A DNA stretch of 41,953 nt, from NCBI GenBank assembly GCA_903946795.1, contig CAJAXB010000015.1, forward strand, positions 1 to 41,953, read 5' to 3'. The stretch's first letter is position 1, and the number at the start of each line of letters is the position of its first letter. The position numbers were made by a program, and so were the translations under genes. Under the pieces are notes generated by a model. It ran no database searches, had not been told where the DNA came from, and worked only from the letters and a program-made list of their open reading frames with translations. The stretch is from an uncultured Candidatus Saccharibacteria bacterium (GTDB lineage: Bacteria; Patescibacteriota; Saccharimonadia; Saccharimonadales; AWTP1-31). Positions 4,755-41,953 of this stretch are shown here, in pieces.

Positions 4755-6479
4755 CTATTGATATCTTTTTCGAACGACAAACCCAGCTGCAGATAGGCTC
4801 ACTACAAGAGCAATAGCCGCGAGAGGATTATTATGATCTTCAGTACTCTTTTCAAGTCCAGTACTAGGTGCACCAACCGTAATCAAGGAAAGCATTATTG
4901 GATCTTTAATTATCTTATTAGCAACTCCATCACTATCCAATGTTCCACCGTCTGTGATATTGTATGTGACCGTTGTTTTGGTGACACCACCGATTGAACG
5001 AGTACCAAATGTTGCACCACTTACCGTTTGAAAATTTTTCGTGGTTGGATTGTAGTAACGTAGCACGGATTTCGAAGTGTCATATACCTTATCGTAGATA
5101 ACTGTGATCGGCACAGTCATACCTGCAGTCGGGCAATAGACTTCAAAGCCAGTAGTTGTTGTAAGTTGTGGCGCAAACCCAGTGTCTGTCTGTGAGCTAT
5201 AAGGATTAGACCACTGTGGATTCTCAATTGTGCAATTTGAATTTGCAGGAGTTTCTATAGTACTCCACACGTCTGCGTCATTGGGAAGAGATTTAACATA
5301 TGCCTGGTAGGAATCATCAATGCCATCGCCGTTTGCGTCACCATTGTTTGGGACATTGCTTGGAACCAACATTGCCTGTAACCCGCGCAGAGTTGGGTAG
5401 TCGTTTTCTTGTGCTTGCCATATTGTATTAAAATCCCAAGTATCTATTGGTGTAGTGGTGTTATCGCCTTTCCATACTTCAGGTGCTGCCTGACTATTTG
5501 TCGCACCGCTGCACGTATTTGAACCGCCCCAAACACAGTTGCCGGTACCAATTCTATACAAATCAAACCAGTTATTAGTCGATATTCCATTATCTCCTGA
5601 GCCCCATAATCCGCCTACCCCGCCTATTCCATTAGCTAAAGATGCCGAGAATGAGTCAGTTACAGTGCCTTCAAAGAATCCGCCGATAAGACCACCAGCG
5701 CTCGCTTGTGTGCCGTCAAAATTGATTGTCGATGAACTATATATCCTACTAACCTGTGCTCCAGTTGAGAACATTCCGCCAATTGCACCACCTGAGTAGC
5801 TAATCGCAGGGTTGACAGTACCGTCCACAAAGCTATCTTCAATAACAACTTCATCTAGAAACACACCGCCTACAAGGCCACCTAAATATCCGACTGGTGC
5901 ACTTACTGAACCGCTGAAAGAACTCTTCGTAAAAGAAAAAGAGCCTGTGCCTCCAAATATCATACCTACAAGGCCACCAGTGTAGCCCCCTTCTGTAGCA
6001 ATATCCATATTTGAATGTACGTTAGTAATGAGCGTTGCACCTCCGGCAATCCCAACTATGCTTCCAGCTGTATTTGTACTTGTTATCGATCCACTTTCGA
6101 TGCGAAAATCTTTTATTGTTGCATTCTTTGCAGATGTAAATAGTCCTAAGCCATTAATTGTGAGGTTTTTAATTGTGTGGTTATTGCCAAACAGTTTACC
6201 TGTAAAGTCACTGATATTGTATATGCCGATACTTGTAAACTCCACACCTTCACAATCAATATTTGAAACAAGTTCATAGGTTGCATCTATGTGATCATTC
6301 ATTGACTGTAGTTGTGCACAGTTTGCTATTCTATAGGGGCTCTCGTCAGTACCGTCACCGTAGCCTGAAAATGGAGTTGCACCATTCGCGTATGCTGTTA
6401 CTGGACGTAAGCCAATACTCAAAACGCTCAATACCAAAACTGCAACCAGTGAAATCGCCCCAAACCTTGTACGTTTCAT
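4755..6479 (-). CDS. GLUG-repeat cell-surface protein with choice-of-anchor-U-like domain and PxTG-like C-terminal anchor
   Basis: N-terminal signal-like segment; GGLVGxxF GLUG-like repeats; YYNPTTKNFQTV...YNITDGGTLDSDGVAN...; C-terminus GAPSTGLEKS...PLAAIALVVSLSAAGFVVRKRYQ (motif + TM + basic tail). Confidence 0.85.
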   Translation of the reverse strand: MKRTRFGAISLVAVLVLSVLSIGLRPVTAYANGATPFSGYGDGTDESPYRIANCAQLQSMNDHIDATYELVSNIDCEGVEFTSIGIYNISDFTGKLFGNNHTIKNLTINGLGLFTSAKNATIKDFRIESGSITSTNTAGSIVGIAGGATLITNVHSNMDIATEGGYTGGLVGMIFGGTGSFSFTKSSFSGSVSAPVGYLGGLVGGVFLDEVVIEDSFVDGTVNPAISYSGGAIGGMFSTGAQVSRIYSSSTINFDGTQASAGGLIGGFFEGTVTDSFSASLANGIGGVGGLWGSGDNGISTNNWFDLYRIGTGNCVWGGSNTCSGATNSQAAPEVWKGDNTTTPIDTWDFNTIWQAQENDYPTLRGLQAMLVPSNVPNNGDANGDGIDDSYQAYVKSLPNDADVWSTIETPANSNCTIENPQWSNPYSSQTDTGFAPQLTTTTGFEVYCPTAGMTVPITVIYDKVYDTSKSVLRYYNPTTKNFQTVSGATFGTRSIGGVTKTTVTYNITDGGTLDSDGVANKIIKDPIMLSLITVGAPSTGLEKSTEDHNNPLAAIALVVSLSAAGFVVRKRYQ

Positions 6480-10941: not shown

Positions 10942-13900
10942 TTAGTTGTGCTTGCCAAGACCCGTATTAGGCGCTCCAACTACATTAACCGCTAAACCTG
11001 CAGGGTCAGTAATCAGACCGTCTTCTAGTCCGTCAGCATCACGGGAGCTACCGTCTTTTACAGTGTAAGTTACACGTGTTGCTGGTTGATTCTCGATAGT
11101 AATTTGCTCCAAAACTGCGTCGGCTATGGTGAAGTAAGCTCCAGTTGTTGGATTGTATTTGCGAATTGTTACTTCTCCGGGAGTAACTCCAAAGTAGGTC
11201 TGTGTGACTGTTGTCGTAAAGCCAGCCTGGCCACAATCGGCGTTAAAGCCTACTAATCCATTCGGATAGTCGTAGGCCACATCATTTGGAGCACCACCAT
11301 CAAGCTCTTGCTTGAAAAGAGCTTCGAACGTACACTCAGCTGATAGCTCTAGCTTTATAGGTTTATTGGTTTGCGGACTGATGAACGCTACACTGTTTTC
11401 AGCACAACCCAAGTCCCACTGGAGACATGGAAAGCCCTCATTATAACTGTCATATCGTGACCAAATAGCATCAAAATCAAACTCAGTCATTGGCCCGTTG
11501 GTGGTTGATTTAAAGTAATTAACATTGTTTTCAATTTTTGTGCAGTTGTCGTTACCAAGCTGATACCCACCATCCTGATAGTTATAACATGGCATATCGG
11601 GATCATCGCTGTCGGTCAGATTCCAATAAACATTGTCTACAAATGGACTTGAAGCAAGTGATATCTCGCCAATTATACCTCCAGAAATCGTGCCAACTAC
11701 AGATCCACTAGCAAACGAATCTTTAACATTGATATTGTTATTGCTTAGGTTGTGATATCCGCTAATACCGCCAACATAATTATGACTAGCGTTAACAATT
11801 TCTCCAGTTGAATAGGTTCTCTCTAGTGAGGCACCTTGTGACTGACCGACAATTCCACCTGTGTAGTCACCATTGCCCGTGACATCCCCCCTAGAATAAC
11901 TGTCGGTAATAGAAACAATATTCATATAGCCAACCAATCCACCTACATAATAATTACCCTCAACACTTCCGGTGGCGTACGATTGATTAATAGATCCATC
12001 ATAAATTGCCCCAACCAGACCACCAGCATTACTATTGCTTGTAAGTACGTTTCCGGATGCGCTTGATTGACTAATTTCAGAATTATCATATAATTCGCCG
12101 GCCAAACCGCCAGCTGTACAGTTAGCTGTAACATTTCCGGTTGCCTGAGTCCCGATTATGTCTTTAGCCCTATTGGATCCAACAACACCCCCTGCATTAC
12201 AACTACTTACCGTCACATCAACATCGGCTGATGAATCTACGATAGTACTGTTTGATGGATTATCGGTGCCGACGTATTCACGCGTGTTCCAGGTGTCTAG
12301 ATATGACTTGTTTTCAGGGGTGTCAGGATACTGAGTATTTAGGTCATAGGTGCCCATCCCTTGGTACGGCAGAGGATCGACATGCGTACCAAGTGTACCC
12401 AGATTTGCATGCTTATACAGTGCTTGGTTGTTAAGTATAAAGCTGCGTTCTTTTCCTTCTGGGACGGCGTTATATGGGAATTCAACATTTAGCTGGTCGC
12501 CATAGCGCATAACTGCATATTGATCATCTTTGCTTTGTAATAGCGGCGTGACGTCACCGTATTTGGTGAACTTACCATATTGATTCTTAAACTGAGTAGC
12601 TGGATAGGGCTTTACATCGTAATAGTCGTGGTCGTTAAAATGAGATCGATCAATTGCTGTAAACCCATGGAAATCAAGATCAACCGACTCTGGCTCGTAG
12701 GTATTTGTTTCTACAGGAACTTGTGGAGAAGTATCGATGGCAAAGTAGTTGGCCTGCAAGGTGTCGAAGCCGACTTTTACTTGATAGTTGTCACTGAGGA
12801 ACTTACCGGTCAGATCAATAGTTCGAAGCCTTGGTGAGCCATCACTACCAATGTCGTTTTTGTTATAAATCTCTACCCAGTTACCGTTTTGATCTTTTAC
12901 CTGAACGGTACGCAACTTACTCTCTGGAGTCTCATCGTAATTTCGAGCACCACGCATTACAAGCTGAACATTCTCGTCCTTACTAGCCGAAAGGTCGCCG
13001 AAGTCCATGACCCAATAGTTAACTTTACTGTCGTCTTTGTAACTCCATTTGTCGTCGTAGCTTCCGAGACTGTCTTTGCAGTCATTACCGTATTTGTCTA
13101 CACAGGACTGCATAGTATTTGTCGGGGTGTCGCTGATTGTCCTTAGATCGTCTTTTGTAGTATTACGGAACAAGGGCGATACAACGCTGTAGCCTGGCTG
13201 ATGGTCGAAAGTCATCAATGATAATTGGTCGTAGTAGACAATCTCGTTATATTCCTGCGCAATCTTCATGGAATATTTGCCGTCTTTTGGCGCCAAAGCA
13301 CTTTTGTCTATCTGGGCTAAATCTTCAGCATTAGTATAGCGAGGTAACTGACCTCCGACATCATCTGTATAGATATACTTACTTCCGTTCCAGGTATAGA
13401 CAAGCGGACTAGAGTTGTCTAGGTTGCCGATCGGCACATGCTGACCAACTAGACCACCAGAGGTACGATATCCATTAACCGTTCCGCTGGCATGGACGTT
13501 TTCGAGGTGCCCTACCAAACCACCGGCCACAGCTCCGACATACCAATCTCCTGTAATATCAGCATTGGATAGGGTGAAGTTCTCTACGGTTGCGCCATCA
13601 TCAATGACTCCAAACAGCCCAATGTTGCTCTGGTTGGGACGATCTATGAAAAGACCCGAAATAGTAAAGTTTTGGCCATCGAATGTTCCGGTAAACGAGG
13701 TTGGCGAACCTTGGTTACTATAGTAGGTGCCGATTGGCTCAAATCCATAACCATCTCCCCATATACCAACATTGTTAAAACCCGGAGTACCTGGATTAGT
13801 TAGCGAACAATCGATGTCATTGCCTAGGATGTAATCTTCGTTTAGAGGATAAGCGTTGTTGATACCTATTTGAGCCAATTCATCACACGTATTTATTTCT

Positions 13901-13998
13901 ATCTCACCTACGGCATTCACATTAGGAGGAAATGCATTGAACCCAATTAAACTACTAAAAATTAAGGCAATAAAAAATGCCTTCACTCTTTTAAACAT
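10942..13998 (-). CDS. GLUG-repeat surface protein with large internal inserted domain; ends shortly after PNTG motif
   Basis: Signal-like N-terminus MFKRVKAFFIALIFSSLIGFNAFPPNVNA (start inside listed ORF 10942..14037); repeated GGLVGxxxxxSIxxSYATGxV; C-terminus DGSSRDADGLEDGLITDPAGLAVNVVGAPNTGLGKHN*. Confidence 0.85.
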   Translation of the reverse strand: MFKRVKAFFIALIFSSLIGFNAFPPNVNAVGEIEINTCDELAQIGINNAYPLNEDYILGNDIDCSLTNPGTPGFNNVGIWGDGYGFEPIGTYYSNQGSPTSFTGTFDGQNFTISGLFIDRPNQSNIGLFGVIDDGATVENFTLSNADITGDWYVGAVAGGLVGHLENVHASGTVNGYRTSGGLVGQHVPIGNLDNSSPLVYTWNGSKYIYTDDVGGQLPRYTNAEDLAQIDKSALAPKDGKYSMKIAQEYNEIVYYDQLSLMTFDHQPGYSVVSPLFRNTTKDDLRTISDTPTNTMQSCVDKYGNDCKDSLGSYDDKWSYKDDSKVNYWVMDFGDLSASKDENVQLVMRGARNYDETPESKLRTVQVKDQNGNWVEIYNKNDIGSDGSPRLRTIDLTGKFLSDNYQVKVGFDTLQANYFAIDTSPQVPVETNTYEPESVDLDFHGFTAIDRSHFNDHDYYDVKPYPATQFKNQYGKFTKYGDVTPLLQSKDDQYAVMRYGDQLNVEFPYNAVPEGKERSFILNNQALYKHANLGTLGTHVDPLPYQGMGTYDLNTQYPDTPENKSYLDTWNTREYVGTDNPSNSTIVDSSADVDVTVSSCNAGGVVGSNRAKDIIGTQATGNVTANCTAGGLAGELYDNSEISQSSASGNVLTSNSNAGGLVGAIYDGSINQSYATGSVEGNYYVGGLVGYMNIVSITDSYSRGDVTGNGDYTGGIVGQSQGASLERTYSTGEIVNASHNYVGGISGYHNLSNNNINVKDSFASGSVVGTISGGIIGEISLASSPFVDNVYWNLTDSDDPDMPCYNYQDGGYQLGNDNCTKIENNVNYFKSTTNGPMTEFDFDAIWSRYDSYNEGFPCLQWDLGCAENSVAFISPQTNKPIKLELSAECTFEALFKQELDGGAPNDVAYDYPNGLVGFNADCGQAGFTTTVTQTYFGVTPGEVTIRKYNPTTGAYFTIADAVLEQITIENQPATRVTYTVKDGSSRDADGLEDGLITDPAGLAVNVVGAPNTGLGKHN

Positions 13999-14079
13999 TA
14001 ATTTCCCCTTTGTTTTGTAACTCGCAAGCACTACCAAGCCCTTTATTCCTACCTATTAGCACTATTGTATCAATAAACA

Positions 14080-15466: not shown

Positions 15467-17098
15467 TCAGTCTGACTCGTCTTTTTCCAGATTTATTGGG
15501 ACCGTAAGAGTGAATGTGGATCCTTTTTTAAGTTCTGATTCTAGACCTAGTTCTCCATGAATATGTCGGGCTAGCTTTGCTGTAATAAATAGACCAAGTC
15601 CGGTACCGTTAGTAGATCTCGTAAGCGGGTCTTCCGAACGCCAGAATTTATCATACACTTTAGCTTGTTCGCTTTTTGCTATGCCGTTTCCGGTATCTTT
15701 TACTGCAACAATAATATTATTGCCTTTTTTGTTGATTGTAACCGTGATGCCGCCTTGTTGCGTATACTTTATTGCATTAGTAACAAAGTTCTGCATGATC
15801 TCTTTGAAGTAAAGTTTATTAGTAGAAATTTTATCTACTGCCGGATCAATAGCAATCTTGAGATATAACCCCTTCTTTGCCGCTTGTGCGGTATATAGTT
15901 GTTCTATTTCTTTAATGATATCGCCAACCTTAAAAGTTTGAATCTCCATCTTTGTATCGCTTCGCTCTGCTCTTGAAAGAGCCGTTAAGTCATTAACCAT
16001 ATCAGCAAGAAAGACAACTTGGTCATGCGCTTTAGTTACAGATTCTTTGATATCTTCTACTGCAAGTTTAGGCTTATCGACAAGAAGCATACCCATAGAT
16101 AGCTCACCTTCGGCAATAGTAATTGGAGTGCGGAGCTCGTGACTCACTTCAGAAATGAACATATCTTTTTCTTCGTCGAGTGATTTCTCTTTCGTGATGT
16201 CTCTTAATAAGAGCGTGTAGCCCTCTTTCTTAGAGAATAAGGATGTGCCTTTAATCGTACTAATACTGAGATCCAGAGAAATTTGATCTGTGCTTCCTAC
16301 TGGCAATACAAGATCTTTTCGTCTTTGAATGTTTGTTGTACTCTCAAGCTCTTTGAAAATATCAATCGTATTTCCTTTTGAATCTTTAAGTTTCAAAATA
16401 CTTCTTATATGTTTTCCAGTAAGTGTCATGTGTGTATCTAATAGATTTAGGGCGGCAGCATTGTATGCCAAAATATATCCTCTCCCATCTGTCGTAATCA
16501 CTGGATCATACATCGTATTAATAAGCCCAAGCAGTCGGGCTCTTTCTCGCTCTACCTGATCTACCTTAGATTCCATATCTGTACGTTTTTGTACATTTGA
16601 AAAAACGAGTTGTGTAAGGATAATACTGACGATAAGGAGTAGTATGTATTGCGGTACAATTTTATTGAATGAAGCTATGGTAAGGCCATTATCCTGGTAC
16701 TGAACACCCATGACGAGCGCAGCCCATAGTGCAATAGAGCTATACACAACTCCTTTAGCCTGATAGCTAAAGTAGGTGAGGTAGATCAGTAATACCCATA
16801 TATACAAAAAGTAAGATAGCGTTGGCACAATAAAAATAAGTACAAAACAAAGTATCCAGTGGTAGGCATAGATTGATGCAGCTTTTGAAACATGGGGCCG
16901 TACACTCGGTAAAAGATGCGCGCCGGCAAAAAGAGAAAGGAAAAGGGCAGTGCCATACACGAGATATGGGTTAGTACTAAACGTCTGGTTTGTTAGAAAA
17001 TTAAAGATAAGTAAAAGGCTAATACCAACAATAGCAGCCACGATGATTCGTGGGTTTATTTCAGGAGATGAAGCTGATCGAACATTAGACTGAGCCAT
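15467..17098 (-). CDS. Membrane sensor histidine kinase with PAS-like domain
   Basis: Multiple N-terminal TMs; MYDPVITTDGRGYILAYN; H-box FISEVSHELRTPITIAEGEL; N-box NFVTNAIKYT; DTGNGIA; GTGLGLFI. Confidence 0.95.
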   Translation of the reverse strand: MAQSNVRSASSPEINPRIIVAAIVGISLLLIFNFLTNQTFSTNPYLVYGTALFLSLFAGAHLLPSVRPHVSKAASIYAYHWILCFVLIFIVPTLSYFLYIWVLLIYLTYFSYQAKGVVYSSIALWAALVMGVQYQDNGLTIASFNKIVPQYILLLIVSIILTQLVFSNVQKRTDMESKVDQVERERARLLGLINTMYDPVITTDGRGYILAYNAAALNLLDTHMTLTGKHIRSILKLKDSKGNTIDIFKELESTTNIQRRKDLVLPVGSTDQISLDLSISTIKGTSLFSKKEGYTLLLRDITKEKSLDEEKDMFISEVSHELRTPITIAEGELSMGMLLVDKPKLAVEDIKESVTKAHDQVVFLADMVNDLTALSRAERSDTKMEIQTFKVGDIIKEIEQLYTAQAAKKGLYLKIAIDPAVDKISTNKLYFKEIMQNFVTNAIKYTQQGGITVTINKKGNNIIVAVKDTGNGIAKSEQAKVYDKFWRSEDPLTRSTNGTGLGLFITAKLARHIHGELGLESELKKGSTFTLTVPINLEKDESD

Positions 17099-22079: not shown

Positions 22080-23603
22080 ATGTCATCTGCAAATGAAAAA
22101 ATTGGCCGCTTAATTTATCAGTTACGGCAAGAACGCGGCCTCACTCAAGCAGCTTTTGCGAAACAACTTCAAACCAGCCAATCGGCAGTTAATCGCATTG
22201 AACATGGCAAACAAAATCTTAGCATAGAAACTCTTGGCCGCATTAGTGACGTACTTAATAAGTCGTTGATTCAGATTGGTGAAGGGGGCGTCAATCTACG
22301 TATTGAGGGCGGTCATGAACTGCGAGGAACAATTGAACTTAAAACGAGTAAAAATGCTGCTGTTGCTTTACTGTGTGCTAGTTTGCTCAATCATGGTGTG
22401 ACCCGCTACAAATCCTTCCCTCGCATCGAAGAAGTCAATCGAATAATTGAGGTTCTAGAGAGTATTGGAGTGAAATGTAAATGGCTACCTGGTAATGATC
22501 TTGAAATTCGCCGTCCTGCAAAGCTTGATCTGGGCGCGATCAACGGTCCTGCTGCACGGAAAACAAGAAGTGTCTTAATGCTCATTGGCTCACTCATGCA
22601 TGACTATTCACACTTTAAAATTCCCTATGCTGGGGGCTGTAAGCTTGGAGTAAGAACCATTGAGCCACATTTGCTGGTACTGGAAAATTTCGGTGTTGGC
22701 GTTCGAACTGTAACCGGTCATTACGATGTCAAAGTGAAAAAACGAACGCCCGGCGAACGCATTATGCTCTATGAAGCCGGTAATACGGTAACTAATAATG
22801 CACTCATGGCAGCCGCTCGCACTCCTGGAACAACAATTATTCAAAATGCCAGTGCTGACTATATGGTACAGGATCTTTGCTTCTTCTTGCAGAAATTAGG
22901 AGTTAAAATTTCAGGCATCGGATCTAATGTATTAACAGTGACTGGACTAGCTACTATAAAGAAAAATATAACGTTTGCTCCAAGCGAAGACCCAATTGAA
23001 GCAATGTTCTTTATATCAGCTGCGATTACGACTAATTCAAAGGTGACAATCTCACGTGTGCCAATAGACTGGATAGGGCTTGAGCTCTATAAACTCAAGG
23101 TCATGGGATTACGCTACAAAATATCTGAAAGGTATAAGGCTACAAACAATATAGTAGATCTTGTGAATCTCACTATCGAGAAACACAACGGCGGTCTTAA
23201 TGCACCAAAAGATAAATTACACCCGAATCTATGGCCGGGCGTTAATCCCGATAATATCCCCTATTTTGTACCTATAGCCGCTGTTGCTAAAGGTCGTACA
23301 CTTATCCACGACTGGATGTTTGAGAACAGAGCAATATATTACACTGAGCTGACAAAAATTGGAGCAAGTCTCGAACTCGTCGATCCGCATAGAATTTACG
23401 TGAATGGACCAACAAGATTTACAAAAGCAGATGTCGTCTGTCCTCCAGCCCTTCGCCCGGCTAGCTTGCTACTAATCGGGATGCTTGCTGCTAAAGGCAC
23501 ATCAATGCTTCGTAACGTCTATACTATTAATCGTGGATATGAAGACATTGCTGAGCGACTCAATAGTATCGGCGCGGACATAACTGTTCTCAACGAATTA
23601 TAA
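22080..23603 (+). CDS. murA: UDP-N-acetylglucosamine 1-carboxyvinyltransferase with N-terminal XRE-type HTH domain
   Basis: N-terminus IGRLIYQLRQERGLTQAAFAKQLQTSQSAVNRIEHGKQNLSIETLGRISDVL; then EPSP-synthase-like domain with TSKNAAVALLCASLL and GGCKLGVRTIEPH (catalytic Cys). Confidence 0.92.
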   Translation: MSSANEKIGRLIYQLRQERGLTQAAFAKQLQTSQSAVNRIEHGKQNLSIETLGRISDVLNKSLIQIGEGGVNLRIEGGHELRGTIELKTSKNAAVALLCASLLNHGVTRYKSFPRIEEVNRIIEVLESIGVKCKWLPGNDLEIRRPAKLDLGAINGPAARKTRSVLMLIGSLMHDYSHFKIPYAGGCKLGVRTIEPHLLVLENFGVGVRTVTGHYDVKVKKRTPGERIMLYEAGNTVTNNALMAAARTPGTTIIQNASADYMVQDLCFFLQKLGVKISGIGSNVLTVTGLATIKKNITFAPSEDPIEAMFFISAAITTNSKVTISRVPIDWIGLELYKLKVMGLRYKISERYKATNNIVDLVNLTIEKHNGGLNAPKDKLHPNLWPGVNPDNIPYFVPIAAVAKGRTLIHDWMFENRAIYYTELTKIGASLELVDPHRIYVNGPTRFTKADVVCPPALRPASLLLIGMLAAKGTSMLRNVYTINRGYEDIAERLNSIGADITVLNEL

Positions 23604-34520: not shown

Positions 34521-37500
34521 CTATGCAGTATTAATAGCGATTGCTGATGCACCTTTTGCTGGTGCCCTATTCAATGGAAGCGCTACAATCACTGTAGTAC
34601 CTTTATTAAGTTGACTCGTAATGCTAATCTTACCACCAAGTTTATCGATTATTACTTTATCAGCATACAGATCGAGTCCAATACCTTCATAGTTATACTG
34701 CATTGAGTCTGTGCCACGAGTGAAAGGACGAAGCAAACTTGGTAGCTTATCGCTAGAAATACCTATTCCTTGATCCTTTACTGTCATAACAATTTTATTA
34801 AATCGCCTGTGTAAAGTGACGTTCACTGTTCCACCGTCGTTGCTAAATTTAACTGCGTTATCTAGGACTGAAGTAAAGACTTGTTTCATTTCAGCGGGTT
34901 GTATTCGCGACACCACACCAAGATCGATATCAGAAACAATCGTGATTTTCTTTTCTTGAGCCTTTGTTTGCATTTCTCGAATCACACGATTCACGTACGT
35001 CGTAATGTCAAATAGTGGCGGATTATCAGATACATCAGCGAACATAGTGAGGTTATTCAGGGCTACACTGACTTCTTCAAGCTTGGCAAGACCATTAAAG
35101 AAAAGATTCGATTGAGGAATAGCCTTTAGTCCGGCTCCTGCATTCCTTATAGCAGTAACATTCGCGCCAATTGTTGCAGCGGCTTTAGGTATAAACGCGC
35201 TGCGCTTATCATAGAGTTCTTTTTCTATGCGAAGCTGTTCGCGTGCCAGTCGTTTTGTATCTTCCAGCATATCTCGGTATCGGTATGCAAGGACAACTAG
35301 CGCAAGGCTAAGGGTAAACAGTAGCACCTCGATACCAATCCGTATTCTGGATCGACTGAAGACCTCAGCGTACATAAACATTATGTTGGCGAGAATAATC
35401 AACCATAAGGATATTAGCGCAGGAATCCAGACCTCACGTTTAAATAGAGGGTTAGTTTGTTTGGCGTGAATTTGTTTAAGGTCTTTTGTTGATTGTGCAC
35501 CAGAGACTTGATTATCGACAAGTAATTGTTGCACATCGTCAGTATTTTTCTTAATAGCCTTTGTAAGCATCTCGGCTTTTTCTTTAGTAATCTTCTTTAA
35601 TGCAGTGAGCAATTCTACAGCTCCACCCATAATGGCTGATGGGGTATTCAAATAATGCGTAGTTATCGCAAGGAAGTTATCAACCGACTCTTTAGTAGCA
35701 ATAACGCGCAGTAAGCTTCTACGGTACTCCGATAGCTCACTATATTGCCTTAGTGCTTGCCATGAATAGAGTGCAGCGAGAAGAAGAAGTAACAATATGA
35801 ATAGATATGGTAAGCTTTGAGCAACAATTGGAGGTACACTTCCTATCAATACTTTAAGTCCTTTTACGCGTTGTGGGTTGGCGTTAACTTTACCCAGCTT
35901 TTTCGCAATATTTCGAACATAGCCGACAGTTGTTGGATTTGTAAATGAACTTGTTATTTCAGTCGGTGGTATTACCGGAGTAATAGGAGTTGGTGGTGTT
36001 GGAGGGGTTGGAGCAGTCGGTCCTACGCCAGGGTTTTCTGGACTTACAGCGCCCGCTACAAACTTTGGATAATCTTTCTGTTGCGTATACCATAAGCCGT
36101 TAAAGTTCCAGCTCGTAAGCGGGGCATTTGTCTTATTATTAATAAAGTAATTTTGCTGTTTATTATTTTCATTTACCAAATTACAGCTTGGCCTTTTTAC
36201 AACTGGGTCAATGTACATACTGGCCCAGTTTTCAGGAAAATTAGGCTCTATAAGATTATTGTCATTTGCATCAGGAATATACTCTGTCTTATACGCCGTA
36301 TTCACAACATCATAGGCAGATCCGCTTGGTCCAACACAATCATTAACGGTAATTTTTGAACGGTCAAAATAATTATTGGATTGTGAAAGAATATTACTAT
36401 CACTAATGTCATTGCCTACCACTGCGCCTATTGGAGAAAGGGTTAGTCCAGAAAAACCAGCAGTCAGAGTGTCACCTGTGATGCTGAGAGGTGATGCAGA
36501 AAAAACATTACGAATCGTCTGAGGCTTACTGACAAACTCATTAAGATCCGTAATGCCGGATGCTTCCGGGGAAGTAATTTTAGTTATGTTGGGCTTTGGA
36601 ATTGCAAAATTTACTCCAATAATACCGCCCGCAACTGAAGGTATTTCAGGTAACTTCAATTGATTCGGTCTACGATCTTGGGGGAAACTTACTGTAGGCA
36701 TTGAAATTGCACCGCTTGCATATGAGTTCTCAAGCAATCCACCTGGCGCTGCATACACGCCGACAAGACCACCAATAGCACTCGGTGTATACGTACTTAC
36801 ATTATTAACAAATGTCGCACCAGGGTCACGCTCGTTAGGGTTTAAGGTAAATACATTACGAAGTCCAGTAACATTGCTGGTTGCATAGGTGTTGGTGACA
36901 TCAATAGGACGTGAATCATCAAGATACGTTGCTAGATTAATACCAAGGATGGGTACTGAGACTGTGCCGATTTCTGAAATTGCTCCTGCCAAGAATGCTG
37001 TAGCAACTCCTGAGAGACTTCCAAGCTGCCCCGCTATACCACCCGCAAGTGAACCCCTAACGCTACCAGTTGCGTATGACTTATTAATGCTAAGGGACAA
37101 TTCTCCAGATCCTAAAAGACCTCCAGCAATGATGCCATTCACAGATCCTTTCGCAAAGGTAGAGTCAATACGAATTGCAGCTGGAGCAGTTGCCGGATCT
37201 ACGACGTCGGGACTGATGATCGGCACTATATCTGATCCTATGGCGACACCGCTTAATCCTCCAGCAATTGAGATCGAATTATCATTTTTAGAGACTGTTT
37301 CAATAACGGCCTCACCGTCCACGCCCGTATCAACCTCTATACTTTCACGGTTATCATTTACTACATTACCTAGAGCATGTGAGTTTGCCAAAGTCACCTT
37401 ACCAAGCATTACCCCTGTTGCACCACCAGAAATAGTTGCATTGACTCCAGGTCCAATTTTAGTATTACGAACTTCGCCAGTAGCATATGAATTATTTATT

Positions 37501-40500
37501 ACAAGGCCGTACGTTGGTGCTATTGGTTCTTGAAGAATAAGACCAAGGGTATATGGAACATCTATACCAATACCGACACCAACCAGACCACCCGAAATTG
37601 ATGCACCGCCCTGTGAAGTGCTTTGCATTGTATTCTTAACCTGTCCTGTAGCATATGAGGATTGGATTGTGCCGCTACCGGCATATACGCCAACCAGACC
37701 AGCATTAATAGAGACTAAGCCTGTTGGGCTTTCTGCATTGACATTACCTGTTGCGTAACTATTGGATATTACATAATTTCCATTCTGATCACCTGAGTTA
37801 AGCATGATGCCAGAAAGACCGCCTGCAACACCTATGTATACAGGGTACTTGTTTGTATCAGCTGGTAACGTATTTATTGCTCGTACGGCTCCCGTTGCAT
37901 GACTGTTTACGATGCGTGATTGCAATAAAGCACCACTCAAGCCGCCCATTACTCCACCGTACGCATTACCGAATACTTGTTCATCTAGTGTACTTGCGGA
38001 ACAGGTACTGACAGCGCCAGACGCTGAAGACGACTCAATACTTACGCCACTTCCAGCACCGATTAAACCGCCAAGGGCACCGACGCGCACCTGGCTAGGC
38101 GCTTGACAGGCACTTACAAGTCCAGATGCTGATGAATTTCTAATAATAACGTTTTGCGATGATAATGTATCGCGAATTTGTGTTGGTGTATTATCTTGAA
38201 TACCAAGCAAGGCTAATGCAGCCCTTGAAGATCCTACGCCGAGCAAGCCTCCCCCAATATTAGCTTCTACAGATGCGGATGAGCTACTATTCTGTATTGT
38301 CAGAGTCACTGGTTCTGGAGACTGCAGGTCAGGACGAGATGCAGCAATCGCAACAATACCTCCTGAAATAAATCCGAATACTGAGCCATTGGATGACAAG
38401 TTATCAAGTGTCAGAGATGTATCTTGCCCCTCAAAATCGAGGAGCACATTATTGGTTGTCGTAAATGTTGATAATGGTATGACTATTCCAAAGACACCGC
38501 CACTCACTGCACCACTCACAATAGTGTTATTGACTTGTATATTGGAATAAGTACCGCTGCCACCAACTACACCTGCCACCGTTCCGAGTGCCCAGCGGGT
38601 AAGTGTCTCTACTCCACCGATAGTCTGCTGTCCTGCTGTTTGACCTGCGTTAATCGCTTCTTCTTGAGTTGGTATTTGTGGGTTTGCTGGATCTACAGGA
38701 AGAGTTGGTGCATCGGGGAGGCCATTGCCATCAGTATCGATTTCAGGTACTAGATTAGCAATTCCACTAACGGAGCTGTTAGAAATCTTGATGTTTTGTA
38801 AGTTTGCTCCCGCTACCACACCAAATAGTCCTGCACCTTCATACTTTGTTCCGTCATTAGTCGTCGTAACATCTATTGTCAAATTACTAATTGTGTAGCC
38901 TCTACCATCCAAAGAACCAGCGAAAAAGAGTTTCCCGTTACCGACAGGTTGAAAATTTACGCCGTCACAGTCAATATTGGCTGTTAGTATATATGCCCCG
39001 TCAAGGTCGTCACGCATTCCCTGCAATTCCCCACAATTAGAAATTGTATGGTTGATCACGGCAGTTGTAGATGCAGTAATTATATCTGACCATGGCCCGT
39101 TGCCTGCTGCGTTAACAGCACTTATCTGAAATTCATATGATGTCTGTTCACTAAGGCCCCTAATGATAGCTTGCAAATTAGAGTATTCTATAATCCCATT
39201 CTCAACCCAATCCGTCGCTCCAGTTTTTCGATAACGTAATTGGTAGCTTGTTGCAGTCTCGACAGCGTCCCAATTAAAGGTAAAGGATTTTGCAGCAGGC
39301 GTATTTTGTATATTTTGCGGGGCAGTCTCTGGCATGCCAGTAGCAAAATTATACTCATTTGAGTATAATCCACTGCCAAAATCACTCATGGCCCTGATTC
39401 TAAAATCATAGTTTCCTGGAATAGTGAGTCCGGATAATACAGCGCTTGTATTTGTACTGATCCCGTCATCATAGTAGGCCCATGAATACTGATCTGATCC
39501 ATGGTTTCGATAATAAATTTGGTAGTCAGTTATTCCATCTGACCGGCCTCCCTCAACTGCCGACGCTGTCCATGAAATATCAAAATCGTTTCCATCTCGT
39601 GTTACGAGTAAATCGGTTGGTGGATTTGCACGAACTGATCTTTGCTTAAGCGTAGGTAATGCAGACCCTGTAAGCTCCCAATCTGAAGTTCTGTCCCATG
39701 TGCCATAAACTGCTCGATTACTATCGTAAAAATATCCAGGTTCGCTGCCATCAGTATTCACCGCAGTACAGGCACTAGCAACTGTTCCTGCACACTCGCT
39801 GAGCTCGACTGCAGTACTATCAAAATAATTTGATGTAATGTCTAGATCGTTAATCTCAAGATTACCAACAATTCCGCCCTTGTAACCAAGAGAACCAGTG
39901 ACGGAGCTAAGTGTAAAGTTATTAACAATTTGAGGGTTATTCGTTGGGTCATCACTAGAATATCGAGCAACACGTCCAACAATTCCGCCCTGATTTGCAG
40001 AATTAGCTGAACAGAAAATATTACCTGTAGAGTAATCCTTGGCCACTGTTGAAAATGCATCCGAGTAGCCTACTATACCTCCACAGTTTAGTCCTGAAAA
40101 GTTATTAGAATCATTAGTACCCATTGAAATATCGCTCACGGAATAGCTATCGATTAAGCTACCAGTCGAATTATTGTAACCGTCCATCAGTCCCGCAATA
40201 CCGCCTAAATTTGCGTTTCGTTCAGTTAAGTCGGATTGCGATAGACTAACCAGTCCAGTAACCTTTGCATACGAAATATAACCTCGATTAATCCCTGCCA
40301 GGCCGCCAACATTTGTAGATTGGCTGTTTCCTTGCACGTTCAGCTCACTATATATATTTTTGAGTTGTATACCGCTCAGCAGTTCACCGGCGATGACTCC
40401 AACATTAGAACCGCCGTTTATTGCTACTTGCCCTGTGGTAGCTGGGCCATTTAAAAAACGAAGATTGGTTACAAAACTTGCATTAGTAGTATAACTAAAT

Positions 40501-40889
40501 AGCCCTACAGCATATTCAGTGGGTCTGTTAATATATAGCCCCGTGATCGAGTAGTTTCGTCCGTCCAAGCTTCCTGAAAAATTTATTGGTTGGAATCCTT
40601 GTCCATTATTCCAGTTGACCGTATCGTTACAATCAATGTCTTGTGTAAGCACAAAATAGTTGGTTGGTGCAGTGTTCATTTCCTGCAGTTGTGCGCAGTT
40701 GGTGATACGATATGGCACATCAAGCGTACCTTCTCCGACACCGCTAAACGCTTTTGCGGTATTTGGGCTGACAACTGAAATATAATAAACACCAGTAAAA
40801 AGTGCTATCAATGCAAAGAAAGATAGACCTAAAATTCTAATTCTTTTGGTAGAACCCCCAAAAAATTGTTTTTGCTCCTGAATTTTCAT
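34521..40889 (-). CDS. Giant GLUG/Fn3 surface protein with C-terminal histidine-kinase module
   Basis: 2122 aa: N-terminal TM; repeated GGLxGxxxGSxIxNSYATGxV; Fn3-like segments (~39.07-39.64 kb); TM VAQSLPYLFILLLLLLAALYSW; THYLNTPSAIMGGAVELL; two TMs; N-box VLDNAVKFSNDGG, DQGIGIS, YEGIGLDLYA. Confidence 0.9.
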   Translation of the reverse strand: MKIQEQKQFFGGSTKRIRILGLSFFALIALFTGVYYISVVSPNTAKAFSGVGEGTLDVPYRITNCAQLQEMNTAPTNYFVLTQDIDCNDTVNWNNGQGFQPINFSGSLDGRNYSITGLYINRPTEYAVGLFSYTTNASFVTNLRFLNGPATTGQVAINGGSNVGVIAGELLSGIQLKNIYSELNVQGNSQSTNVGGLAGINRGYISYAKVTGLVSLSQSDLTERNANLGGIAGLMDGYNNSTGSLIDSYSVSDISMGTNDSNNFSGLNCGGIVGYSDAFSTVAKDYSTGNIFCSANSANQGGIVGRVARYSSDDPTNNPQIVNNFTLSSVTGSLGYKGGIVGNLEINDLDITSNYFDSTAVELSECAGTVASACTAVNTDGSEPGYFYDSNRAVYGTWDRTSDWELTGSALPTLKQRSVRANPPTDLLVTRDGNDFDISWTASAVEGGRSDGITDYQIYYRNHGSDQYSWAYYDDGISTNTSAVLSGLTIPGNYDFRIRAMSDFGSGLYSNEYNFATGMPETAPQNIQNTPAAKSFTFNWDAVETATSYQLRYRKTGATDWVENGIIEYSNLQAIIRGLSEQTSYEFQISAVNAAGNGPWSDIITASTTAVINHTISNCGELQGMRDDLDGAYILTANIDCDGVNFQPVGNGKLFFAGSLDGRGYTISNLTIDVTTTNDGTKYEGAGLFGVVAGANLQNIKISNSSVSGIANLVPEIDTDGNGLPDAPTLPVDPANPQIPTQEEAINAGQTAGQQTIGGVETLTRWALGTVAGVVGGSGTYSNIQVNNTIVSGAVSGGVFGIVIPLSTFTTTNNVLLDFEGQDTSLTLDNLSSNGSVFGFISGGIVAIAASRPDLQSPEPVTLTIQNSSSSASVEANIGGGLLGVGSSRAALALLGIQDNTPTQIRDTLSSQNVIIRNSSASGLVSACQAPSQVRVGALGGLIGAGSGVSIESSSASGAVSTCSASTLDEQVFGNAYGGVMGGLSGALLQSRIVNSHATGAVRAINTLPADTNKYPVYIGVAGGLSGIMLNSGDQNGNYVISNSYATGNVNAESPTGLVSINAGLVGVYAGSGTIQSSYATGQVKNTMQSTSQGGASISGGLVGVGIGIDVPYTLGLILQEPIAPTYGLVINNSYATGEVRNTKIGPGVNATISGGATGVMLGKVTLANSHALGNVVNDNRESIEVDTGVDGEAVIETVSKNDNSISIAGGLSGVAIGSDIVPIISPDVVDPATAPAAIRIDSTFAKGSVNGIIAGGLLGSGELSLSINKSYATGSVRGSLAGGIAGQLGSLSGVATAFLAGAISEIGTVSVPILGINLATYLDDSRPIDVTNTYATSNVTGLRNVFTLNPNERDPGATFVNNVSTYTPSAIGGLVGVYAAPGGLLENSYASGAISMPTVSFPQDRRPNQLKLPEIPSVAGGIIGVNFAIPKPNITKITSPEASGITDLNEFVSKPQTIRNVFSASPLSITGDTLTAGFSGLTLSPIGAVVGNDISDSNILSQSNNYFDRSKITVNDCVGPSGSAYDVVNTAYKTEYIPDANDNNLIEPNFPENWASMYIDPVVKRPSCNLVNENNKQQNYFINNKTNAPLTSWNFNGLWYTQQKDYPKFVAGAVSPENPGVGPTAPTPPTPPTPITPVIPPTEITSSFTNPTTVGYVRNIAKKLGKVNANPQRVKGLKVLIGSVPPIVAQSLPYLFILLLLLLAALYSWQALRQYSELSEYRRSLLRVIATKESVDNFLAITTHYLNTPSAIMGGAVELLTALKKITKEKAEMLTKAIKKNTDDVQQLLVDNQVSGAQSTKDLKQIHAKQTNPLFKREVWIPALISLWLIILANIMFMYAEVFSRSRIRIGIEVLLFTLSLALVVLAYRYRDMLEDTKRLAREQLRIEKELYDKRSAFIPKAAATIGANVTAIRNAGAGLKAIPQSNLFFNGLAKLEEVSVALNNLTMFADVSDNPPLFDITTYVNRVIREMQTKAQEKKITIVSDIDLGVVSRIQPAEMKQVFTSVLDNAVKFSNDGGTVNVTLHRRFNKIVMTVKDQGIGISSDKLPSLLRPFTRGTDSMQYNYEGIGLDLYADKVIIDKLGGKISITSQLNKGTTVIVALPLNRAPAKGASAIAINTA

Positions 40890-40978: not shown

Positions 40979-41443
40979 GTGAAGGATCAACCAAATAATC
41001 AATCTGCACCTGCAGTGAACGGCAAAAATATCCTAAAGAATAAAAAGCAACTATCTCTTATTCTGGGTGTAGTTTTGGTTCTCGTTCTCAGTACTGGTAT
41101 TGCATTCTACTCTGGCATCCAGGTAGGAAAAAAAGAAGCGACAAAGGCAATAAATCGAAAAATTGGCGATTTCTTAAACCCACTAACTGCATTAGCGACT
41201 AATCCACTCTTTCCTGACTCAATCGTAGGAAAAGTTACTAATGTGAACGGTAAGTCCATTACTGTTAAACGAATAGATGGTAAGACTGAAACAATAAGTA
41301 TCACCGACAAAACACTCATAACTCAGAATACCAAGACTCTCTCAACATCAGATATCAAAAAAGATGCTAATGTAACGGTATTCACTGCAAAGAGTGCAAA
41401 CAAGGATTCTCTGAGTGCTGCTCGAATTATCGTTCGATCGTAG
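40979..41443 (+). CDS. Hypothetical protein with N-terminal TM and DUF5666-like segment
   Basis: GTG start after GGAG; TM LSLILGVVLVLVLSTGIAFYSG; KVTNVNGKSITVKRIDGKTETISITDKTLI. Confidence 0.7.
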   Translation: MKDQPNNQSAPAVNGKNILKNKKQLSLILGVVLVLVLSTGIAFYSGIQVGKKEATKAINRKIGDFLNPLTALATNPLFPDSIVGKVTNVNGKSITVKRIDGKTETISITDKTLITQNTKTLSTSDIKKDANVTVFTAKSANKDSLSAARIIVRS

Positions 41444-41953
41444 TTAGTCTCGCTTTAGCATAACGGTAAAGGCTTCTGCAGGAATATCAACTTTTCCAAA
41501 ACGCTTCATGCGCTTCTTACCTTTTGCCTGTTTTGCTAATACTTTTTTCTTACGAGATACGTCACCACCGTACAGTCCTGTTGTCACGTCTTTTCGATAG
41601 GCTGAAATATCTTCTCGTGCTATAAACTTTCCTCCAATGCCTGCTTGCAGTGCAACCTGGAAGTTTTGTCTTGGTATTACTTCTTTTAGTTTAGTAACGA
41701 TTTCACGTCCAAGTCTTTGTGATTCACTTCTGTGTACCATGACACTGAGTGCTTCTACCATCTCGCCTGCAACATAGAAATCGACCTTTACAAGATCTTC
41801 TGCACGGTAATCATCAAGCTCGTAATTAAAGCTACCGTACCCGCTTGTAACACTCTTTAGCTGGTCGTAGAAATCAGTCAAGAGGTTGGCAAGAGGGGCC
41901 TCAAATGAAACGAGGGCTAACTGAGCGTCGACGTAGCTTAGATTTTTCTGAAT
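41444..41953 (-). CDS. lepA: Elongation factor 4 (LepA), C-terminal part (5' part beyond window)
   Basis: Frame open to window edge (IQKNLSYVDAQLALVSFEAPLANLLTDFYDQLKSVTSGYGSFNYELDDYR...GGKFIAREDISAYRKDVTTGLYGGDVSRKKKVLAKQAKGKKRMK). Confidence 0.96.
   Translation of the reverse strand: MQKNLSYVDAQLALVSFEAPLANLLTDFYDQLKSVTSGYGSFNYELDDYRAEDLVKVDFYVAGEMVEALSVMVHRSESQRLGREIVTKLKEVIPRQNFQVALQAGIGGKFIAREDISAYRKDVTTGLYGGDVSRKKKVLAKQAKGKKRMKRFGKVDIPAEAFTVMLKRD

Follow-up and report, generated by a model that had tools for sequence, protein, structure and literature searches.

How does a host-dependent bacterium sense that it has reached its host? The question arises for the Patescibacteria, whose genomes hold few signalling genes and among which the Saccharibacteria are ultra-small, host-dependent bacteria. 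The locus analyzed here appears to offer a possible answer. In a 41,953-nucleotide saccharibacterial contig (CAJAXB010000015.1; this entire stretch is the window of the following text), a single gene encodes a 2122-aa protein that was initially annotated, from the nucleotide sequence alone, as a fusion of an adhesin-like GLUG/Fn3 ectodomain with a cytoplasmic histidine kinase and as a possible sensor of host contact. Is this fusion genuine, is the kinase complete, and is the architecture an isolated case?

A single receptor gene in the lepA-gmk locus

The open reading frame is intact (Table 1), and the Pfam matches and GLUG repeats agree with the annotation of a single polypeptide that combines an adhesin-like ectodomain with a histidine kinase. 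An origin of this frame by a frameshift or an assembly join of two genes, the outcome that would have undone the annotation, is ruled out by the existence of collinear, full-length orthologues: L020 (2121 aa, 70% identity over 2123 columns), from a metagenome-assembled genome (MAG) labelled uncultured Candidatus Saccharimonas sp., and L042 (2189 aa, 53%) and L044 (2301 aa, 39%) from two further genera. All three belong to other genomes of the same taxonomic family and share the lepA-gmk locus: lepA lies just upstream of each, and gmk follows the kinase, although immediately adjoining it in some genomes only. In another genome (G001), the opening 559 aa of the orthologue are visible before the contig ends, and the full-length architecture is encoded as a single frame in at least four genomes. 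That the lineage is Saccharibacteria is supported by the kinase region, whose match reaches 84% in a MAG that carries the label uncultured Candidatus Saccharimonas sp.; in a scan of named genomes, the single kinase sequence found two matches, a close relative and a generic HATPase.

Table 1. Features of the receptor kinase gene and its neighbours (window positions; res, residues of the 2122-aa protein)
Feature	Residues	Positions	Strand	Basis or remark
Kinase ORF		34521-40889	minus	2122 aa; ATG start; internal stops absent
N-terminal signal/TM segment	1-47	40749..40889	-	hydropathy peak res 19-37; sequence; possible cleavage between AKA and FSG
GLUG solenoid module A	48-425	39615..40748	-	GG[LIV]xG repeats; weak Pfam GLUG
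Two fibronectin type III domains	~426-612	39054..39614	-	Pfam fn3 E 2e-18, 2 stretches
GLUG solenoid module B	613-1480	36450..39053	-	repeats, cap motif, periodic short beta strands in low-confidence model
Ectodomain end and Pro/Thr-rich stalk	1481-1685	35835..36449	-	sequence
TM1	~1688-1710	35760..35828	-	hydropathy 2.35; K/R per 100 aa 11.2 before vs 20.5 after
DHp1, HisKA-like phospho-acceptor, H-box THYLNTP	~1725-1800	35490..35717	-	Pfam HisKA in relatives, HK853 profile, His conservation
His1745 codon	1745	35655-35657	-	within DHp1 H-box THYLNTP
TM2	~1818-1842	35364..35438	-	hydropathy 2.24; almost all relatives hydrophobic here
TM3	~1849-1871	35277..35345	-	hydropathy 2.32; TM2-TM3 loop ~8-12 aa, K/R-poor
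DHp2, pseudo-HisKA	~1880-1975	34965..35252	-	aligned to SrrB and HK853 DHp; HisKA Pfam match in L117
Ala1905 codon, His-equivalent position of DHp2	1905	35175-35177	-	alignment to DHp
CA, HATPase_c with N, G1, F and G2 boxes	~1990-2110	34560..34922	-	Pfam E 1.8e-20 (res 1999-2107)
Companion, 154-aa single-TM DUF5666-like protein		40979..41443	+	divergent from kinase; weak Pfam match
lepA, 3' part		41444..41953	-	marks conserved lepA-[companion/kinase]-gmk locus

A histidine kinase core divided by a membrane hairpin

The annotated C-terminal HATPase with its intact motifs is readily confirmed: the N (VLDNAVKFS), G1 (DQGIGIS), F and G2 (EGIGLDLY) boxes are all in place. Correct as far as the ATPase goes, the motif list overlooked the H-box of DHp1 with His1745, as well as a second, degenerate DHp region. 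The finding of DHp1 rules out the possibility that the protein is an ATPase devoid of a phospho-acceptor. The Pfam HisKA match of the 2122-aa protein by itself is under the cut-off (E 0.006), but HisKA is recognized in 19 of 26 relatives (best, 4e-6), and the matching stretch falls in DHp1 where coordinates are listed, with the exception of L117, whose best stretch is DHp2. A profile of TM1-DHp1-TM2-TM3 (A2), compared with the PDB, picked out the DHp domains of CpxA, EnvZ and HK853 (E 3e-6 for the last), and the HK853 alignment sets His on His; conversely, ordinary histidine kinases of ~370-780 aa from many genomes match A2 at E 1e-8 or better, only at model positions ~28-115, that is, in DHp1. 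Judging from these profile comparisons, DHp1 is a true HisKA homologue. A profile of DHp2-CA, in turn, matches SrrB and HK853 over their complete DHp-CA core (E 1e-31), with Ala in the His column of the present protein. The acceptor His of DHp1 is found in 42 of the 47 aligned relatives, in 40 of these with the following T-P, whereas DHp2 is devoid of it in all 47.

The hairpin loop contains 8.1 K/R per 100 aa, compared with 15.8 and 22.0 on its cytoplasmic flanks, a charge pattern that fits, and supports, a topology in which DHp1 lies inside, the hairpin loop outside, and DHp2-CA again inside. Given the transmembrane peaks (residues ~1688-1706, 1820-1838 and 1851-1869), the alignments of DHp1 and DHp2, the His counts and the charge pattern, the order of the core is TM1-DHp1(His)-TM2-TM3-pseudoDHp-CA. 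The His-bearing DHp does not lead straight into CA: almost all aligned relatives have two transmembrane helices and a DHp without His between them. Hence, of the annotated cytoplasmic histidine kinase, the kinase stands and is complete, but it is no ordinary cytoplasmic transmitter because the membrane hairpin and the pseudo-DHp interrupt it. An AlphaFold2 model of the kinase, built from two sequences, has a pLDDT of 52, so that the agreement of its helix order carries no evidential weight; Foldseek matches this model to generic histidine kinases (E ~5e-4).

Both DHp regions and CA align to those of the HisKA/HATPase_c transmembrane sensor kinases HK853, SrrB, CpxA and EnvZ, and the likeness extends to the general plan of a dimerizing receptor with extracytoplasmic input. 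However, in ordinary sensor kinases DHp and CA make up one kinase core (PMC12471899), unlike the present arrangement, in which the His-bearing DHp is parted from CA by two transmembrane helices and a second DHp without His.

An adhesin-like ectodomain

The N-terminal membrane segment of the initial annotation corresponds to a hydropathy peak, and the Fn3 assignment holds as well; the GLUG assignment is probable, the matches being individually weak. The fn3 match (PF00041) reaches 66.8 bits over two stretches, above the cut-off, whereas GLUG (PF07581) scores 18.3 and 14.9 bits (E 0.003-0.04) against a curated cut-off of 20.5; the same model exceeds this cut-off in the relatives L062 and L066 and in the window ORF 10942-14037. 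About 20 GG[LIV]xG repeats are arranged in two blocks (residues 195-345 and 686-1430), and modules A and B open with a common cap, NCxxLQxM ... DIDC ... F.GSLDG (37% identity over 99 aa). An AlphaFold2 model of module B (pLDDT 47) consists of repeated short strands; its top Foldseek matches are beta-helix proteins, none of them significant.

The ectodomain was also said to be of the same family as anchored proteins encoded in the window. This link holds because the cap is common to all: it recurs in the window proteins 4755-6479 and 10942-14037, two proteins with GLUG-type N-termini to which the ectodomain is homologous at 30-35% identity (E 6e-15 to 2e-16). The likeness to such GLUG-motif surface proteins and adhesins thus lies in the solenoid and its cap; the difference is that they are anchored or secreted whereas here GLUG is fused to a kinase. 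Both window proteins are encoded on the minus strand and end in AP[NS]TG motifs: 4755-6479 has an APSTG-TM-RKR tail that resembles a sortase-type sorting signal, and 10942-14037, which ends directly after its motif, is perhaps truncated.

So could the protein be primarily an adhesin, with the kinase a vestige or a minor feedback device? Three quarters of the protein belong to the head, which is similar to the anchored GLUG proteins of the window, and some giant relatives have decayed G1 boxes. We nevertheless regard this reading as very unlikely, given that all kinase motifs of the 2122-aa protein are intact and that the kinase region is the best-conserved part between same-genus orthologues (81-90% identity vs 52-76%). 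The dN of the kinase region is 0.06-0.15, and dS is at or near saturation, so that only the contrast in dN was used. By comparison, the membrane-distal module A is the fastest-diverging region between same-genus orthologues (52% identity vs 72-90% elsewhere), as would be expected of a partner-facing surface, although relaxed constraint would look alike.

A receptor family with interchangeable heads

A profile survey within the Patescibacteria, using the kinase module or the DHp1-hairpin profile, detected full-length matches in all seven genomes of the source's taxonomic family, most of them multi-copy, sporadically in genomes of the order and of the class Saccharimonadia, and in three genomes of other patescibacterial classes (G316, G418 and G438). 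By this measure, the kinases appear to form a lineage-expanded family of the Patescibacteria, mainly of the Saccharimonadia. The heads carried by the relatives include GLUG+Fn3, NHL propellers, DUF285, Ig-like, DUF11/Big, He_PIG, InlB-type, PA14 and RCC1+TIG domains, and members of family f35 have short heads. Three paralogues on one contig of genome G005 have kinases that are 60-66% identical and heads that are essentially unrelated. Conversely, the head of L056 is 37% identical to that of the 2122-aa protein over 1588 aa, similar to the 35% of a true orthologue, while the L056 kinase sits in a different supported clade. The kinase tree as a whole requires at least 14 changes of head type. 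Judged by these comparisons, the GLUG architecture is not a one-off but one head type of a larger receptor-kinase family with interchangeable heads. The hybrid two-component receptors of Bacteroidetes, with large ectodomains of the beta-propeller/Y_Y_Y type on a kinase and many paralogues per genome, offer a possible parallel to this family; both the large ectodomain and the multitude of paralogues are shared, but the chain described here is without a receiver or an AraC output domain, and its order of DHp regions differs.

The division of the core raises the question of whether a receptor molecule phosphorylates its own His at all. DHp1 might instead relay phosphoryl groups that it receives from another kinase, or be phosphorylated only between clustered neighbouring receptors, with no reaction in cis in the same molecule. 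A membrane hairpin lies between CA and the His, which sit on different bundles, and split histidine kinases are known: in Rhodobacter sphaeroides, the acceptor and catalytic parts are divided between CheA3 and CheA4 (PMC3591291). The two cases are alike in placing these functions on separate structural units; however, CheA3 and CheA4 are two distinct CheA-type proteins, whereas here a single HisKA-type polypeptide is divided by the hairpin. Some members of the family do retain the His without G1, which is lost in L067, L109 and L113-L115; the last three keep the H-box, are very large (at least 3385 to 6423 aa, with an RCC1/TIG head in L114) and, for lack of G1, may be kinase-dead giants. Yet 37 of the 47 relatives keep the His together with all scored CA motifs (N, G1 and G2) in one chain, and the loss of the DHp1 His (in L052, L054, L055, L066 and L112) tracks the decay of CA motifs, if weakly (Fisher p 0.03, with sequences that are not independent). 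By their motifs, members that lack the His or G1 seem to be inactive. We therefore consider phosphorylation exclusively by other molecules to be unlikely, and favor a receptor in which His and CA work together.

Another possibility is that DHp2-CA reads a phosphorylated response regulator, as DivL of Caulobacter, with a Tyr at its acceptor position, reads DivK~P (PMC4211667); the kinase region would then be partly an input, and DHp1 a phosphatase or a sink. DHp2 indeed retains the DHp signature, never with the His, and thus shares with DivL a DHp-CA core without the acceptor. Furthermore, three small headless paralogues in three genomes, L052 (7992-9218), L054 (7265-8623) and L055 (8047-9357), have Ser or Tyr at the DHp1 His site (Tyr in L054 and L055) and lie divergent from, or beside, genes of OmpR-type response regulators; by sequence, they are possible DivL-like pseudokinases and perhaps a clue to the partner regulator. 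For the 2122-aa kinase, however, such a role seems distinctly improbable: in DivL the His is replaced in the only DHp, whereas here an additional, intact DHp1 precedes the pseudo-DHp and retains the full H-box, and most members, the 2122-aa kinase included, have intact CA motifs.

A companion gene and the search for a response regulator

Strong homologues of the companion protein (E below 1e-24) number 12 in 22 genomes, and 10 of the 12 adjoin a kinase of this receptor family; these kinases include L056 and L057, which lie elsewhere in the chromosome. Homologue L124 adjoins a giant ORF that the contig truncates and whose N-terminus is kinase-like, and L122 is located at a contig end, where the neighbourhood is not assessable; for weaker homologues in the 22 genomes, linkage to receptor kinases was not found. 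This linkage suggests that companion and kinase share a function, which would make the companion a candidate accessory subunit, possibly a periplasmic or surface modulator.

No linked cognate response regulator is encoded in the window. In a search of 26 genomes, and headless pseudokinase paralogues apart, the only regulator close to a kinase of the family is directly upstream of one in G064:C4, which has Asn at the His site; otherwise regulators are at a distance of several kb or lie on separate contigs. The source genome encodes six receiver domains, along with six HATPase hits including gyrase: two receivers are beside a long kinase (contigs C89 and C82), two are in kinase-regulator operons, and two are without a neighbouring kinase. 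The first pair consists of single-domain receivers adjoining L078 (C89) and L081 (C82); since the same ~720-aa kinase starts on both contigs, they represent an assembly overlap or a duplicate. An orphan 134-aa receiver at G000:C71 and an OmpR-type regulator at G000:C50, both of the source genome, are the foremost candidate partners of the receptor.

A proposed model of surface-contact signalling

All these observations seem to be accommodated, with reasonable though far from full confidence, by a modular membrane receptor kinase for surface contact, split into DHp1 and DHp2-CA, that feeds an unlinked response regulator. What the sequence establishes is the order of the domains, the topology signals, the conservation of the motifs, the exchange of heads and the linkage of the companion gene; we infer that His1745 would be phosphorylated by the receptor's own CA, that contact or tension would be the signal, and that a regulator would be the target. 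An adhesin-like stalk, composed of a GLUG beta-solenoid, two Fn3 domains and a second solenoid, would project from the epibiont and be tied via TM1 to the four-helix bundle of DHp1 that bears His1745, whereas CA would be held on the separate, His-less bundle of DHp2, anchored in the membrane by the TM2-TM3 hairpin. Binding of, or tension on, the ectodomain would then shift TM1 and DHp1 relative to the fixed hairpin, DHp2 and CA; this shift would change the access of CA to His1745, from which the phosphoryl group would pass to the unlinked regulator. Such a receptor may let the cell feel what it adheres to.

A further-reaching and tentative version, which we hold to be possible rather than probable, is that these proteins are a distinct class in which a pull on a swappable adhesin head gates autophosphorylation between the hairpin-divided bundles, making them tactile sensors of host attachment with a dedicated companion. 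A limited search of the open-access literature found no description of a kinase family with swappable heads or of tandem DHp regions around a hairpin. Swappable adhesin heads on one conserved kinase are a concrete candidate for host-contact sensing, which would lead from contact to phosphorylation, and the tandem DHp with its membrane hairpin shows, instructively, how nature has rearranged the core of a histidine kinase.

Other genes in the window

The window also encodes an ordinary PAS-HisKA-HATPase kinase without an adjacent response regulator (15467-17098, minus strand). An EPSP-synthase-family protein with an N-terminal HTH_3 domain, either UDP-GlcNAc enolpyruvyl-transferase-like or an AroA fusion, is encoded at 22080-23603 on the plus strand.
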